A stretch of DNA of 64,000 bases from Geothrix oryzisoli (GCF_022808865.1 NZ_JAKZLB010000002.1:386019-450018); one strand, 5' to 3'; counted from the stretch's first letter, positions 40,687 through 44,661 are shown. Numbers and translations are program-made. Notes: generated from the letters alone by a model not told the origin.

Positions 40687-41205
40687 CTAATCCACCTTCA
40701 CCGCAAAGGGCTTGAACCCGGCCTTCTTCAGCTTTTCTGCGGCCTTGTCGATGGCGGCGCGGTCCGCGGACTTCGCCAGGCGCACCTTCAGCTGGCCCTT
40801 GTCCTTCCGGGTGGTGGTGGGGAATCCTGCGGCCTTGGCCTTGTCGGCCACGCGCTTGGCTTCAGCCGCATCGGAGGTGGCCACCAGCTGGAGGGTCCAG
40901 GTTCCGGCTTCGGCGGGGGCGGGCTCTGCCTTGGGTTCCGCCGGGGGAAGGGTGGCATCCACCCGCGGCGTGGCCACGAGCTTGTCCGGGCCATCGCCCT
41001 CGAAGATCTTGAGCTGGTCCACCAGGGGCTCGGGGAGATCCTTCAGTTCCTCCTCCACGCCCCGCTGGGCCGGGCGCCGCAGGGCCGCCCCCTGCTTGCC
41101 CACCTGGACGCCGAGGACGAACGCCAGCGTCACCAGGCCCACACCCACACCCGCCACCCAGAGGATGGACTGGCTGCCGATGCTGATCTGATCGCGGGCA
41201 TTCAT
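40687..41205 (-). CDS. SPOR-domain protein, single-pass membrane
   Basis: 172 residues. A short cytosolic N-terminus, one helix (LWVAGVGVGLVTLAFVLGVQ), a charged linker, and a C-terminal SPOR domain (TWTLQLVATSDAAEAKRVAD, GFPTTTRKDKGQLKVRL, AEKLKKAGFKPFAVKVD) that binds denuded septal peptidoglycan. It overlaps the KS-beta stop by ATGA. A TAGGCT word 9 nt before its start (41215-41220) could also give it its own transcript. Why a septal protein is attached to a fatty-acid-like operon is not clear. Confidence 0.84.
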   Translation of the reverse strand: MNARDQISIGSQSILWVAGVGVGLVTLAFVLGVQVGKQGAALRRPAQRGVEEELKDLPEPLVDQLKIFEGDGPDKLVATPRVDATLPPAEPKAEPAPAEAGTWTLQLVATSDAAEAKRVADKAKAAGFPTTTRKDKGQLKVRLAKSADRAAIDKAAEKLKKAGFKPFAVKVD

Positions 41206-42296
41206 GACGGGTCCAGCCTAACGCCTTCGAGGTGTGCCGCGAACTGGGCGCCGGAGCTGGCGGGGGCGGTGACGAGGATGCGGTGCCGGGGTTCAAGCAG
41301 GGCTGCGGCCAGGAGTTGGCCCCCGGAGCCGCCGAATTCCCCCCAGAGGTTTTTGGGGTGGCGCGGTCCCGGCCAGTCCGGGTGGGCCGCCGCCAGACTG
41401 GCCTCCAGCGCGTCTACGCGGGCCAGGCCATTGCTGCCGCCGATCCAGTGGTCGGGGCGGCCTTCGCCCAGGACCCGCGCCACCGCCAGGGCCAGGGCGC
41501 CGGTTCGTCCCTCCACGCTGGCGTCCGGTGCGGAGCGGTCTGCCAGGGCGCGGAGGAAGGCCCGGGGGCGGGCGCCCCGCGCCTCCGCGTGGTCCGCTGT
41601 CTCCAGCAGGAAGGCTTCGGCGCCTTCCCCCGGCAGGAAGCCCCGGCCCGATCCGACCTCCGGATCCGCATGGCGGACCAGCAGGCGGGCCCCGCCACAG
41701 ATGTCGAGCAGCAGGGGGAAGAGGCCGTCTGCGCCCAGGACCAGGGCGACGTCCGCGAGGCCGGCGCGCAGCCAGCGGGCGGCCTGGTCCAGGGCCGCGA
41801 AGGTGGCGTTCTCCCGATCCACGAAGGTGGCGCTGGGGCCCTTGAGTCCGAAGGCCAGGGCCAGGTGGCCGCTGGCGGCATTGGCCACGGTGTTGGGGAA
41901 GATCAGGGGGGAGGCGCCTTCGGGTCCCCGCTGGAGGTAGGGCCGCATGAAGGCCTCGCTGGCCTCGCTGCCCCCGCTCATGGTGCCCACGGCCACGGCG
42001 ATGCGGTCGCCCCCGATGCGTGCGTCGGTCCGGGGATCCAGGCCGGCGTCCCGGAAGGCCTGGTGGGCCGCCACCCAGGCGAAGCGCGAGGCCCGGTCCA
42101 GGCGGCGCAGCTGCATGGGCGGGATGATGCCCGCGGGATTGAACGCGCTGCAGGCGGCGCCCCGACCGTGGCCCAACGCTTCAGGCAGCGCTCCGAAGCA
42201 GGGGGTGCCCGACGCGAAGCTGGCCCGGGCAGCCTCGACGCCGTCGCCGCACGGCAGCACCAGTCCCAGACCCGTGATGGCCAGGGCGCCGCTCAT
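41202..42296 (-). CDS. Ketosynthase-like chain-length-factor homologue (catalytically dead)
   Basis: 364 residues of thiolase fold, clearly homologous to beta-ketoacyl-ACP synthases (LAITGLGLVLPCGDGVEAAR, IFPNTVANAASGHLALAFGL). At the active-site loop, where catalytic enzymes read DTACSSS, it reads VDRENATFAALDQ, so Cys is Asn. Neither catalytic His is kept (WIGGSNGLARVD; KNLWGEFGGSGG). It therefore resembles the KS-beta or CLF partner of type II polyketide and aryl-polyene synthases, which pairs with a catalytic KS to set chain length. It overlaps the KS-alpha stop (ATGA). Confidence 0.85.
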   Translation of the reverse strand: MSGALAITGLGLVLPCGDGVEAARASFASGTPCFGALPEALGHGRGAACSAFNPAGIIPPMQLRRLDRASRFAWVAAHQAFRDAGLDPRTDARIGGDRIAVAVGTMSGGSEASEAFMRPYLQRGPEGASPLIFPNTVANAASGHLALAFGLKGPSATFVDRENATFAALDQAARWLRAGLADVALVLGADGLFPLLLDICGGARLLVRHADPEVGSGRGFLPGEGAEAFLLETADHAEARGARPRAFLRALADRSAPDASVEGRTGALALAVARVLGEGRPDHWIGGSNGLARVDALEASLAAAHPDWPGPRHPKNLWGEFGGSGGQLLAAALLEPRHRILVTAPASSGAQFAAHLEGVRLDPS

Positions 42297-43471
42297 CGCC
42301 CCTCCCAGCGCCGGAGCGCCAGCGACACGTTGTTGCCGCCGAAGGCGAACGCATTCACCAGGGCGGCGCGGATCCGGCGTTCCTTCGCCGCCAACGGCGT
42401 GCAGTCCAAATCGCAGATGGGATCCGGCTCCTCCAGGCGCAGGGTGGGGCTCACCGCCTGGTCGCGGAGGGCCAGCAGGGCGGCGGCGGCCCCGAAGGCG
42501 CCGGCGGCGCCCAGGGTATGGCCGAACTGGCTCTTGGTGCTGGTGACGGAGACGGTGTCGGCCGCCGCGCCCAGGGCCCGGCGGATGGCCAGGCACTCAG
42601 CGCCGTCGTTGGCGGGGGTGGCGGTGCCGTGGGCGGAGACGAGGTCCACCTCGACGGGCTCCAGCCGGCCCGAACGCAGGGCCATGGCCATGGCCCGGGC
42701 GGCGCCCTCGCCTTCGGGGTGGGGAGCCGTCGGGTGGTGGGCGTCCATGCTGGCGCCGTAGCCCAGCACCTCCCCATAGATGGGGGCGCCCCGGGCAAGG
42801 GCACGGTCCAGGGGTTCCAGCAGGAGCTGCACGGCCCCCTCGCCCAGGTTGAGGCCCGCCCGGTCGCGGCTGAAGGGGCGGCATTTCCGGGGATCCACGG
42901 CCTTCAGGGAGGAGAAGCCGGCGTAGGTGGTGCGGCAGAGCCCTTCGGCGCCTCCGGCCACGGCCAGGTCCAGCTCCCCGGCGGCCAGGCGCTCCCAGGC
43001 CTGACCCAGGGCCAGCAGACTGGAAGAGCAGGCGTTCATGATGGTGCTCCGGGGGCCTTCGGCGCCGAGTTCCCGGGCCAGGGCGTCGGTGACCGTGCAG
43101 GGGCTCTGGTAGGCGGGTTCGGCGGCCCGGCCACGACGCCCGGCCAGCCGGTCGGCCAGGTAGGCCTCTGCGACGGGCAGGCCGCTGGTGCTGGCGCCCT
43201 GGAAGACACCGATGCGGCCCGGATCGCCTCCCGGCTGGAATCCGTCCAGGGCCTCCGCCAGGGCCAGGAGGGCCATGCGCACGCAAAGCGACTGGTGCCG
43301 GAGGGGCGTGAGGGGCACCTGGCCGGCGATCTGGGCCGGTTCTGCGGGCAGGTCCAGTCGGGTGAGGGCCCCCAGGCCGTCGCGGCCCTCGAGCATGGCC
43401 GACCAGGTGTCCTCGCGGTCCAGGGCCAGCGAACTCACGATGCCCAGGCCCGACACGACGACGCGGATCAT
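42293..43471 (-). CDS. Beta-ketoacyl-ACP synthase (catalytic, KS-alpha-like)
   Basis: 392 residues. The Cys-His-His triad is complete: TIMNACSSSLLALGQAWERL (Cys about 168), VSAHGTATPANDGAE (first His) and KSQFGHTLGAAGAFGAA (Lys and second His). FabF/type II PKS KS fold: VVSGLGIVSSLALDRE at the start and TYAGFSSLKAVDPRKCRPF in the middle. It should condense malonyl-ACP with an acyl-ACP, probably as a heterodimer with the downstream KS-beta. It overlaps the FabZ-like stop by ATGA. Confidence 0.9.
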   Translation of the reverse strand: MIRVVVSGLGIVSSLALDREDTWSAMLEGRDGLGALTRLDLPAEPAQIAGQVPLTPLRHQSLCVRMALLALAEALDGFQPGGDPGRIGVFQGASTSGLPVAEAYLADRLAGRRGRAAEPAYQSPCTVTDALARELGAEGPRSTIMNACSSSLLALGQAWERLAAGELDLAVAGGAEGLCRTTYAGFSSLKAVDPRKCRPFSRDRAGLNLGEGAVQLLLEPLDRALARGAPIYGEVLGYGASMDAHHPTAPHPEGEGAARAMAMALRSGRLEPVEVDLVSAHGTATPANDGAECLAIRRALGAAADTVSVTSTKSQFGHTLGAAGAFGAAAALLALRDQAVSPTLRLEEPDPICDLDCTPLAAKERRIRAALVNAFAFGGNNVSLALRRWEGR

Positions 43472-43875
43472 AGGCGCTTCACCAGCAGGGAGGCTGTGCA
43501 GATGGACCGGCCTTCGCAGGTCACGGCGCCGTTCAGCTTCATCAATCCGGCAAAGGCGCCTTCCGAGGTCACCTCCAGGCGCAGCCGGTCGCCGGGGAAG
43601 GCGGGGGCCTGGAACCGGGCATCCCGCACGCCGGCCAGGAAGATGCCGGCCCCATGGAGGGTCCCGGCCTCCAGGAAGCCGCCGGCCTGGGCCAGCATCT
43701 CCAGGAGCAGCACGCCGGGCACCAGCGGGCGGCCTTCGAAGTGCCCCTGGAGGTAGGGCTCCCCGTTGGTGACGAGCTTCTCCGCCACCACGCGCACGCC
43801 CGGTTCGCGCTCCAGCACCCGGTCCACCAGGAGAAAGGGGTAGCGGTGCGGCAGGTGGGCCGGGATGTCCGTCAT
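43468..43875 (-). CDS. 3-hydroxyacyl-ACP dehydratase, FabZ-like
   Basis: 135 residues, hot-dog fold. Signature LPHRYPFLLVDRVLE at the N-terminus, catalytic His in YLQGHFEGRPLVPGVLLLE (the acid Glu follows in the LEMLAQAGG turn), and the strand IFLAGVRDARFQAPAFPGD. It removes water from a 3-hydroxyacyl-ACP, giving a trans-2-enoyl product. It lies between the ACP (8 nt upstream) and the ketosynthase. No ketoreductase is in the operon, so the hydroxy substrate must come from a shared reductase. Confidence 0.9.
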   Translation of the reverse strand: MTDIPAHLPHRYPFLLVDRVLEREPGVRVVAEKLVTNGEPYLQGHFEGRPLVPGVLLLEMLAQAGGFLEAGTLHGAGIFLAGVRDARFQAPAFPGDRLRLEVTSEGAFAGLMKLNGAVTCEGRSICTASLLVKRL

Positions 43876-43883
43876 GGGCGGTT

Positions 43884-44141
43884 TCACGCCTTGGCGTGCT
43901 CGGCGATGAACTCCGTGAGGGCCTGGACGGACTTGAAGGCCTTCAGGCCCGCGGCCTCGTCCTCGATCTTCACGCCGAACACCTGTTCGATGCCGAGGAC
44001 GAGCTCCAGGGCGTCGATGGAGTCGAGCCCCAGCCCGTCCCCGAACAGGGGGGCCTGGTCCTCGATCTGGTCCGGGGTCATGCCTTCGAGCTTGAGGCGC
44101 TCGATGATCATCTCTTTGACGCGCAGCTTCAGGTCGCTCAT
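43884..44141 (-). CDS. Acyl carrier protein
   Basis: 85 residues, four-helix fold. The phosphopantetheine Ser is in GLGLDSIDALELVLGIEQVF, and the helix III region reads FGVKIEDEAAG. It is acidic, as expected. The first gene of the operon, it probably serves the KS pair rather than general fatty-acid synthesis, because plsX/fabD/fabG do not surround it. Divergent from nuoA. Confidence 0.93.
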   Translation of the reverse strand: MSDLKLRVKEMIIERLKLEGMTPDQIEDQAPLFGDGLGLDSIDALELVLGIEQVFGVKIEDEAAGLKAFKSVQALTEFIAEHAKA

Positions 44142-44280
44142 GACAATCCCGGCAGGACGGTGGGGAGATTGATTCTATCCCTAACCGGAGGGCCCGGTGG
44201 GGTTGTGATATTGGCACGGTTTCGGGATCTGCAAAGGGCGCTAAGCTGGATTCTCGCGGAACCCTCCGCCCGAGAGCGCC
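44142..44280. promoter_or_regulatory. ACP/nuoA divergent promoter region
   Basis: Contains TAAGCTGG on the plus strand (44242-44247 for the hexamer), 33 nt before the nuoA ATG. It has an AT-richer stretch around 44200-44215. No palindrome of note. Confidence 0.3.
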
Positions 44281-44661
44281 ATGGCCCATCCCGCATCGCC
44301 CTTCCTGCCGGTCCTGATCCTGCTGCTGGTCGCCGCCGTGACGGCCATCGCCATCCTCGTGCTGTCCGGCAAGGTGCTGCCCCTGCTCAAGCCCAACAAC
44401 CCGCAGGAGGCCAAGCTGAGGCCCTACGAATGCGGCGTGCCGGCCCAGCAGGAGGGGGCCCGGCACAAGTACTCCGTGAAGTTCTACCTCACGGCCATGC
44501 TCTTCATCCTGTTCGACGTGGAAGCGGCGTTCCTGCTGCCCTGGGCCGTGAACTTCAAGCATGCCCTCTGGACCTTCGCCGCCATGCTCAGCTTCATGGC
44601 CACCCTGCTGGTGGGCTTCATCTACGCCTGGGGGAAGGGCGCCTTCGAGTGGGAGCGCTGA
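44281..44661 (+). CDS. nuoA: NADH-quinone oxidoreductase subunit A
   Basis: 126 residues, three membrane helices. Subunit A lines the quinone-channel entrance of complex I. The conserved loop KLRPYECGVPAQQEGARHKY (with the ECG motif) follows helix 1, and KFYLTAMLFILFDVEAAFL is the second helix region, both hallmarks. ATG after a weak GAGAGC. It is followed after 1 nt by nuoB, then C and D, as in typical nuo operons. Confidence 0.95.
   Translation: MAHPASPFLPVLILLLVAAVTAIAILVLSGKVLPLLKPNNPQEAKLRPYECGVPAQQEGARHKYSVKFYLTAMLFILFDVEAAFLLPWAVNFKHALWTFAAMLSFMATLLVGFIYAWGKGAFEWER

Follow-up and report, generated by a model that had tools for sequence, protein, structure and literature searches.

Ketosynthase (KS)-chain-length factor (CLF) systems, aryl-polyene-like ones included, are usually regarded as large, patchily distributed clusters of secondary metabolism. 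In contrast, a stretch of 64,000 nucleotides from Geothrix oryzisoli (NZ_JAKZLB010000002.1:386019-450018, hereafter the window) holds a four-gene core of this type that occupies the same chromosomal position in almost every Geothrix genome and in relatives from several genera, is subject to purifying selection and lacks dedicated accessory genes. This reduced cassette comprises an acyl carrier protein (ACP), a FabZ-type dehydratase, a KS and an inactive KS-like partner (KS-beta), and has long remained intact in Geothrix and related soil bacteria, flanked by two genes unrelated to it. Here, it is read with moderate confidence as an elongation core that stands alone and belongs to a type II polyketide synthase (PKS) of the highly reducing, aryl-polyene-like kind; it probably makes a lipid or pigment-like molecule using parts borrowed from normal fat synthesis. 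The stand-alone and vertically kept KS-CLF core is new, while the kind of system is otherwise known.

The order of the cassette is ACP-FabZ-KS-KS-beta, with all four genes on the minus strand:

43884..44141, minus strand: ACP gene, 85 aa, with the Ser in GLGLDSIDALEL; Pfam PP-binding
43468..43875, minus strand: FabZ-type 3-hydroxyacyl-ACP dehydratase, 135 aa; PRK00006
42293..43471, minus strand: ketosynthase KS, 392 aa; Pfam ketoacyl-synt N and C
41202..42296, minus strand: KS-beta, chain-length-factor-like, 364 aa; Pfam ketoacyl-synt N

The genes for ACP and FabZ are separated by 8 nt, and 4-nt overlaps of the ATGA type occur at FabZ/KS, at KS/KS-beta and between KS-beta and the ensuing gene of a SPOR-domain protein. 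Coordinates, strand, gene order and tight coupling agree with an earlier sequence-only reading of this DNA, which had also recognized a dedicated ACP and a FabZ-like dehydratase, and the Pfam and NCBIfam identities of the encoded proteins hold. In almost all loci read, the four genes are kept beside SPOR and divergent from nuoABCD. The observation is beyond chance, as evident from conservation of the order in about 28 loci together with the dN/dS values of KS (0.18-0.22) and KS-beta (0.23-0.36); the latter protein is under purifying selection.

Alignment of the KS with FabF, FabB, ApeO and ApeR of Escherichia coli confirmed the intact catalytic Cys-His-His triad proposed previously, along with the Lys. 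At position 108 the KS has Thr as in ApeO, where FabF features Ile. Since the raw identity to FabF and to ApeO is about equal (38-40%), placement of the KS rests on the phylogenetic tree of KS and KS-beta proteins (70 rows). Therein, the cassette KSs form a clade of their own (100/100), which is sister to KSs from other Acidobacteriota (97/84) and resides within a clade of ApeO-type KSs (100/99). The organism's own FabF as well as E. coli FabF, FabB and ApeR fall outside, so that the placement among normal FabF/FabB proteins, named beforehand as the outcome that would speak against a specialized system, was not observed. The single-chain structure model (pLDDT 92) matches 6kxd with a TMt of 0.88. 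By sequence, the best match of the KS in the PDB is 9s5h/9s5i, which does not appear among the best 50 Foldseek matches, and no paper naming the entry was found.

Adjacent to this active KS lies the inactive KS-beta, and both are conserved together, as is typical of KS-CLF pairs. All three catalytic residues of KS-beta are lost, as the sequence-only reading had stated: Cys is replaced by Glu (E162, motif DRE-N), the first His by Gly and the second by Glu, while Lys is kept. The Asn formerly assigned to the Cys site is in fact the residue next to Glu. The latter is invariant in 23 aligned homologues; in KS-beta, the two Glu residues and the Lys are all invariant, and the Glu/Gly/Glu/Lys set is common to several KS-betas of Acidobacteriota. 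KS-beta matches Pfam ketoacyl-synt at 4.5e-24, its single-chain model (pLDDT 87) adopts the KS fold, and superposition on chains of the AntDE:AntF complex (6smo/6smp) yields a TMt of 0.75-0.78. In the 70-row tree the cassette KS-betas are monophyletic (100/100) and join those of other Acidobacteriota, albeit through weakly supported deep branches.

The ACP is ApeE-like: it shares 50% identity with E. coli ApeE as against 32% with the ACP of the organism's own fatty acid synthase (FAS), and its best NCBIfam model is PRK09184 (69.9 bits, cut-off 70). Among relatives, the protein is 78-98% identical. FabZ exceeds the cut-off of the PRK00006 FabZ model (125 versus 113 bits), contains the catalytic His (QGHF) and Glu (LLLEMLAQ), and is 36% identical to the housekeeping FabZ of the genome. 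Hence, the set possesses both the dedicated dehydratase and the dedicated ACP expected of highly reducing type II PKSs. Within the 64-kb window, tblastn revealed no FabG-like gene, by which the ketoreductase dedicated to such systems would be recognized. More broadly, the queries used in this search gave no homologue of a ketoreductase, thioesterase, ligase, acyltransferase, exporter or chorismatase there, consistent with the earlier statement that no ketoreductase, thioesterase or export gene is attached.

The cassette is separate from primary fatty acid synthesis, given that an ACP-FabF pair (L011) and a stronger, housekeeping FabZ (C1:788243) are encoded on contig 1. This rules out the cassette as the only FAS set of the genome, a possibility that the sequence-only reading had itself named as fatal to its proposal. 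A type II polyene or polyketide core served by host FabG, as suggested therein, accordingly is the best-supported view as far as the core is concerned, owing to the KS clade and the separate FAS, while the use of FabG is a step that we infer.

In the proposed mechanism, KS and KS-beta would form a heterodimer in which KS alone is catalytic, whereas KS-beta would shape the pocket and limit the chain, so that the inactive partner probably sets chain length. The dedicated ApeE-like ACP would hold the starter and the growing chain, and FabZ would dehydrate the 3-hydroxyacyl-ACP following every condensation. Ketoreduction by FabG, malonyl loading by FabD and phosphopantetheinylation may be borrowed from primary metabolism. 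With no dedicated enoyl reductase, the ACP would by default end up with a conjugated polyenoyl chain that could then be handed to a general envelope acyltransferase. Several points weigh against this proposal. No dedicated ketoreductase, ligase, thioesterase, acyltransferase or exporter was detected in the window, and support is weak for the deep branches that unite the KS-betas (81/47, 90/53). Moreover, chorismatase is missing from nearly all cassette genomes, and therefore no source of an aromatic starter was identified. FabI could equally act on the chain and thereby yield a saturated product; both the pairing of KS with KS-beta and the nature of the product are matters that we infer.

A saturated, specialized acyl chain is indeed the main rival. 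According to this explanation, the four proteins constitute a dedicated fatty-acid branch that relies on FabG plus the enoyl reductase of the host and supplies a single envelope lipid with an acyl chain of fixed length, which would be saturated or else 3-hydroxy or mono-unsaturated. The chemistry of KS, dehydratase and ACP is shared with bacterial FAS II (FabF, FabZ, AcpP), FabZ lies above the FabZ equivalog cut-off, the near-universal conservation in Geothrix resembles that of core lipid metabolism, and neither a ligase nor an aromatic starter gene is attached. On the other hand, KS and ACP group with ApeO and ApeE instead of FabF/FabB and AcpP, separate FAS copies exist, and the cassette includes a dead KS partner, which primary fatty-acid enzymes normally do not need. 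On balance, a fatty-acid branch is considered less likely than the polyketide core, but much more likely than the three remaining explanations. One of these envisions the cassette as an accessory of an aryl polyene (APE) locus that receives a second KS-CLF from it. An APE-type locus with homologous components (L009; ApeC, D, E, F, I, J, K, O, P, Q and R) does reside on the same contig at a distance of approximately 270 kb, but it already includes two ACPs and an ApeC-like CLF of its own. As a close ApeO is present in only 7 of the 47 Geothrix genomes, as opposed to 41 with the cassette, the cassette is independent of the APE locus; conversely, three genomes (G057, G067 and G068) hold APE but no cassette. 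The accessory role was thus rejected on distribution and is very improbable. Membership in the APE family itself is not supported: the cassette lacks most of the other genes that characterize this family, and it is retained in genomes devoid of an APE locus. Within the 20 kb read around L009 (L009:4345-12410), no recognizable homologue of ApeH, ApeG or ApeL/M/N was observed.

Equally improbable is a machine resembling those for cispentacin or coronafacate, in which ACP, a dehydratase-like protein, KS and an inactive partner carry out one condensation and ring closure. The four-part make-up is the same and the AmcB, AmcE and AmcF models show weak similarity, yet all three remain under their cut-offs (AmcE 56 versus 140, AmcF 201 versus 325), and the ligase queries used revealed no AmcH-type adenylating enzyme in the window. 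Furthermore, the cassette KS-beta exhibits an ordinary KS fold and a Pfam ketoacyl-synt match, unlike AmcG, which was reported to be without recognizable motifs (PMC10698177). The least probable explanation, to which hardly any weight is given, is that the cassette substitutes for BioC by supplying the pimeloyl-ACP from which biotin is made. The genome harbors bioA, bioD and bioF but no BioC (L196, G000:C2:614000-630000), and three genomes of genus g9 that are without the cassette do contain BioC. Comparison of BioC, BioA and BioF over 93 genomes led to rejection of this role, however: G057 and G058 possess bioA and a bioF-like gene but neither BioC nor the cassette, whereas G039 has the cassette without a bioA match.

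Among characterized systems, the APE machinery (ApeO-ApeC, ApeE, ApeI/P, ApeQ) comes close to the cassette in its ApeO-like KS, ApeE-like ACP, dehydratase and catalytically incomplete KS partner. APE-type KS-CLF chemistry has been described (PMC8358021), and genetics of the E. coli APE pathway identified ApeE as the preferred starter ACP (PMC8253772). Nevertheless, KS-beta is a full-length protein of 364 aa as compared to the 240 aa of E. coli ApeC, the cassette is devoid of ApeR, ApeQ, ApeH, a second ACP, acyltransferases and an MMPL/LolA exporter, and it is distributed as a core-genome feature. The clustering of ApeH, ApeQ, ApeR, acyltransferases and exporter that defines APE clusters is not seen in the window, and those of the genes that were found are in L009. 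Ishigamide Iga11-Iga12, the KS-CLF of a highly reducing type II PKS, likewise pairs a KS with a full-length CLF, an ACP and a dehydratase; it differs in its clustered ketoreductase and starter genes, and the KS is only about 35% identical, although the structure model of the cassette KS matches 6kxd from this system. The KS-beta model superposes on chains of the minimal anthraquinone PKS AntDE, but the cassette lacks cyclases/aromatases and contains FabZ, which implies reduction, unlike in AntDE. Polyunsaturated fatty acid (Pfa) synthases are distinct in their multidomain PfaA with KS-AT-ACP repeats; the cassette proteins are single-domain, and the PfaA model reaches 92 bits against a cut-off of 1010. 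As regards ladderane (anammox FASII) clusters, which combine radical SAM genes with several FabF genes, one cobalamin radical SAM query gave no homologue in the window; ladderane enzymes were not among the queries.

Outside the family, related KS/KS-beta pairs occur in other Acidobacteriota (40-47% identity for KS, approximately 30-40% for KS-beta) beside an ACP of about 50% identity. These xanthomonadin-like clusters (L102-L109, L114, L216-L218) share ACP, KS and KS-beta with the cassette, and in most of them Glu occupies the Cys site of KS-beta as well as its second His site. In L109, L216 and L218, a FabZ-like gene adjoins KS/KS-beta as in the cassette, along with a divergent ACP. What sets these clusters apart is an AMP-ligase together with LPLAT, joined in various combinations by chorismatase, FabG-like, methyltransferase, B12 radical SAM or PHP genes, whereas the cassette carries none of them. 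Similar gene company is found in xanthomonadin and APE loci, which favors the PKS reading. In a xanthomonadin-type pathway, hydroxybenzoate is supplied by a chorismate-using enzyme of the XanB2 type (PMC3949708). Chorismatase gave a single weak match (G042) among the cassette genomes, so that this hallmark of xanthomonadin-type pathways is lacking, and a chorismatase-derived aromatic starter was dismissed. Small KS/KS-beta/thioesterase sets located near smc were also noted in other Acidobacteriota (L107, L110, L112), with a KS that is sister to the cassette KS. Other Holophagaceae (L170-L175, L177) have a different ACP-KS-KS-beta trio whose KS-beta is without the K..GE motif; the trio either neighbors a Lip_A_acyltrans gene as well as B12 radical SAM proteins or forms part of an APE cluster that includes an aromatic ammonia lyase.

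Within the family, 41 of 47 Geothrix genomes contain a close KS-beta, among them 30 of the 31 whose completeness reaches at least 90%; it was also found in 11 genomes from other genera. In a collection of named genomes, 45 of 46 loci belong to Geothrix, Holophagaceae or Acidobacteria records, the remaining one being a distant match in Tumebacillus. No report of this cassette in Geothrix was found in the open-access literature. The site of the cassette is delimited by the following features:

40687..41205, minus strand: SPOR-domain protein, Pfam SPOR; ancestral neighbor, judged outside the pathway
44142..44280, no strand: 139-nt intergenic spacer that separates the divergent ACP gene and nuoA
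44281..44661, plus strand: nuoA, which opens the divergent nuo cluster and marks one edge of the insertion site

The SPOR gene lies just outside the interval that the sequence-only reading had delineated, though it was described there as ending the operon as part of the system. It comes after the cassette wherever that flank could be read, with a repeat or an extra gene in between at a few loci. Of six cassette-less genomes inspected at the nuoA site, four from two genera (L211, L212, L214 and L215) have nuoA and SPOR as divergent direct neighbors, and in the other two (L210 and L213) no SPOR match was found there. Because SPOR adjoins nuoA without the cassette, it is, like nuo, an older neighbor and no member of the set; the cassette therefore sits precisely at the nuoA/SPOR junction, with its four genes as the unit. 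This empty site rules out SPOR as a functional part, contradicting the former view, and for the same reason a role tied to nuo is unlikely. The 139-nt region is of equal length in most Geothrix loci compared and largely conserved in sequence.

In the nuoABCD tree, cassette carriers occur in both main clades of the family; an early gain followed by several losses would be the simplest account of this pattern, while repeated gain at the same site appears less likely. It is tentatively proposed that Holophagaceae turned a KS-CLF module of secondary metabolism into a vertically inherited cassette of core metabolism, which would provide one conserved polyketide-derived membrane lipid or redox/pigment molecule and borrows all accessory enzymes from FAS. 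The cassette points to an unrecognized cell-envelope component or small molecule in an environmentally common group of metal reducers, and represents a compact system for studying the joint use of FabG and FabD by KS-CLF pairs and primary fatty-acid synthesis.

Some loci deviate from the compact arrangement. Four Geothrix genomes contain an ORF-poor repeat between KS and KS-beta (L050:8787-9213, L051:9307-9592, L056:8914-9208 and L058:8424-8745) with a palindromic, GGCTTCCGGCGCAGCCGGAAG-like core that was not found in the window; extra genes were ruled out here, as the inserts read are repeat-like DNA. A look for linked genes among the neighbors inserted next to the cassette at L052, L065 and L070 yielded no common candidate. 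In one Geothrix genome, a 1537-aa protein resembling nonribosomal peptide synthetases, with adenylation and membrane acyltransferase-like parts, is encoded beside the cassette (L052:10506-15119).

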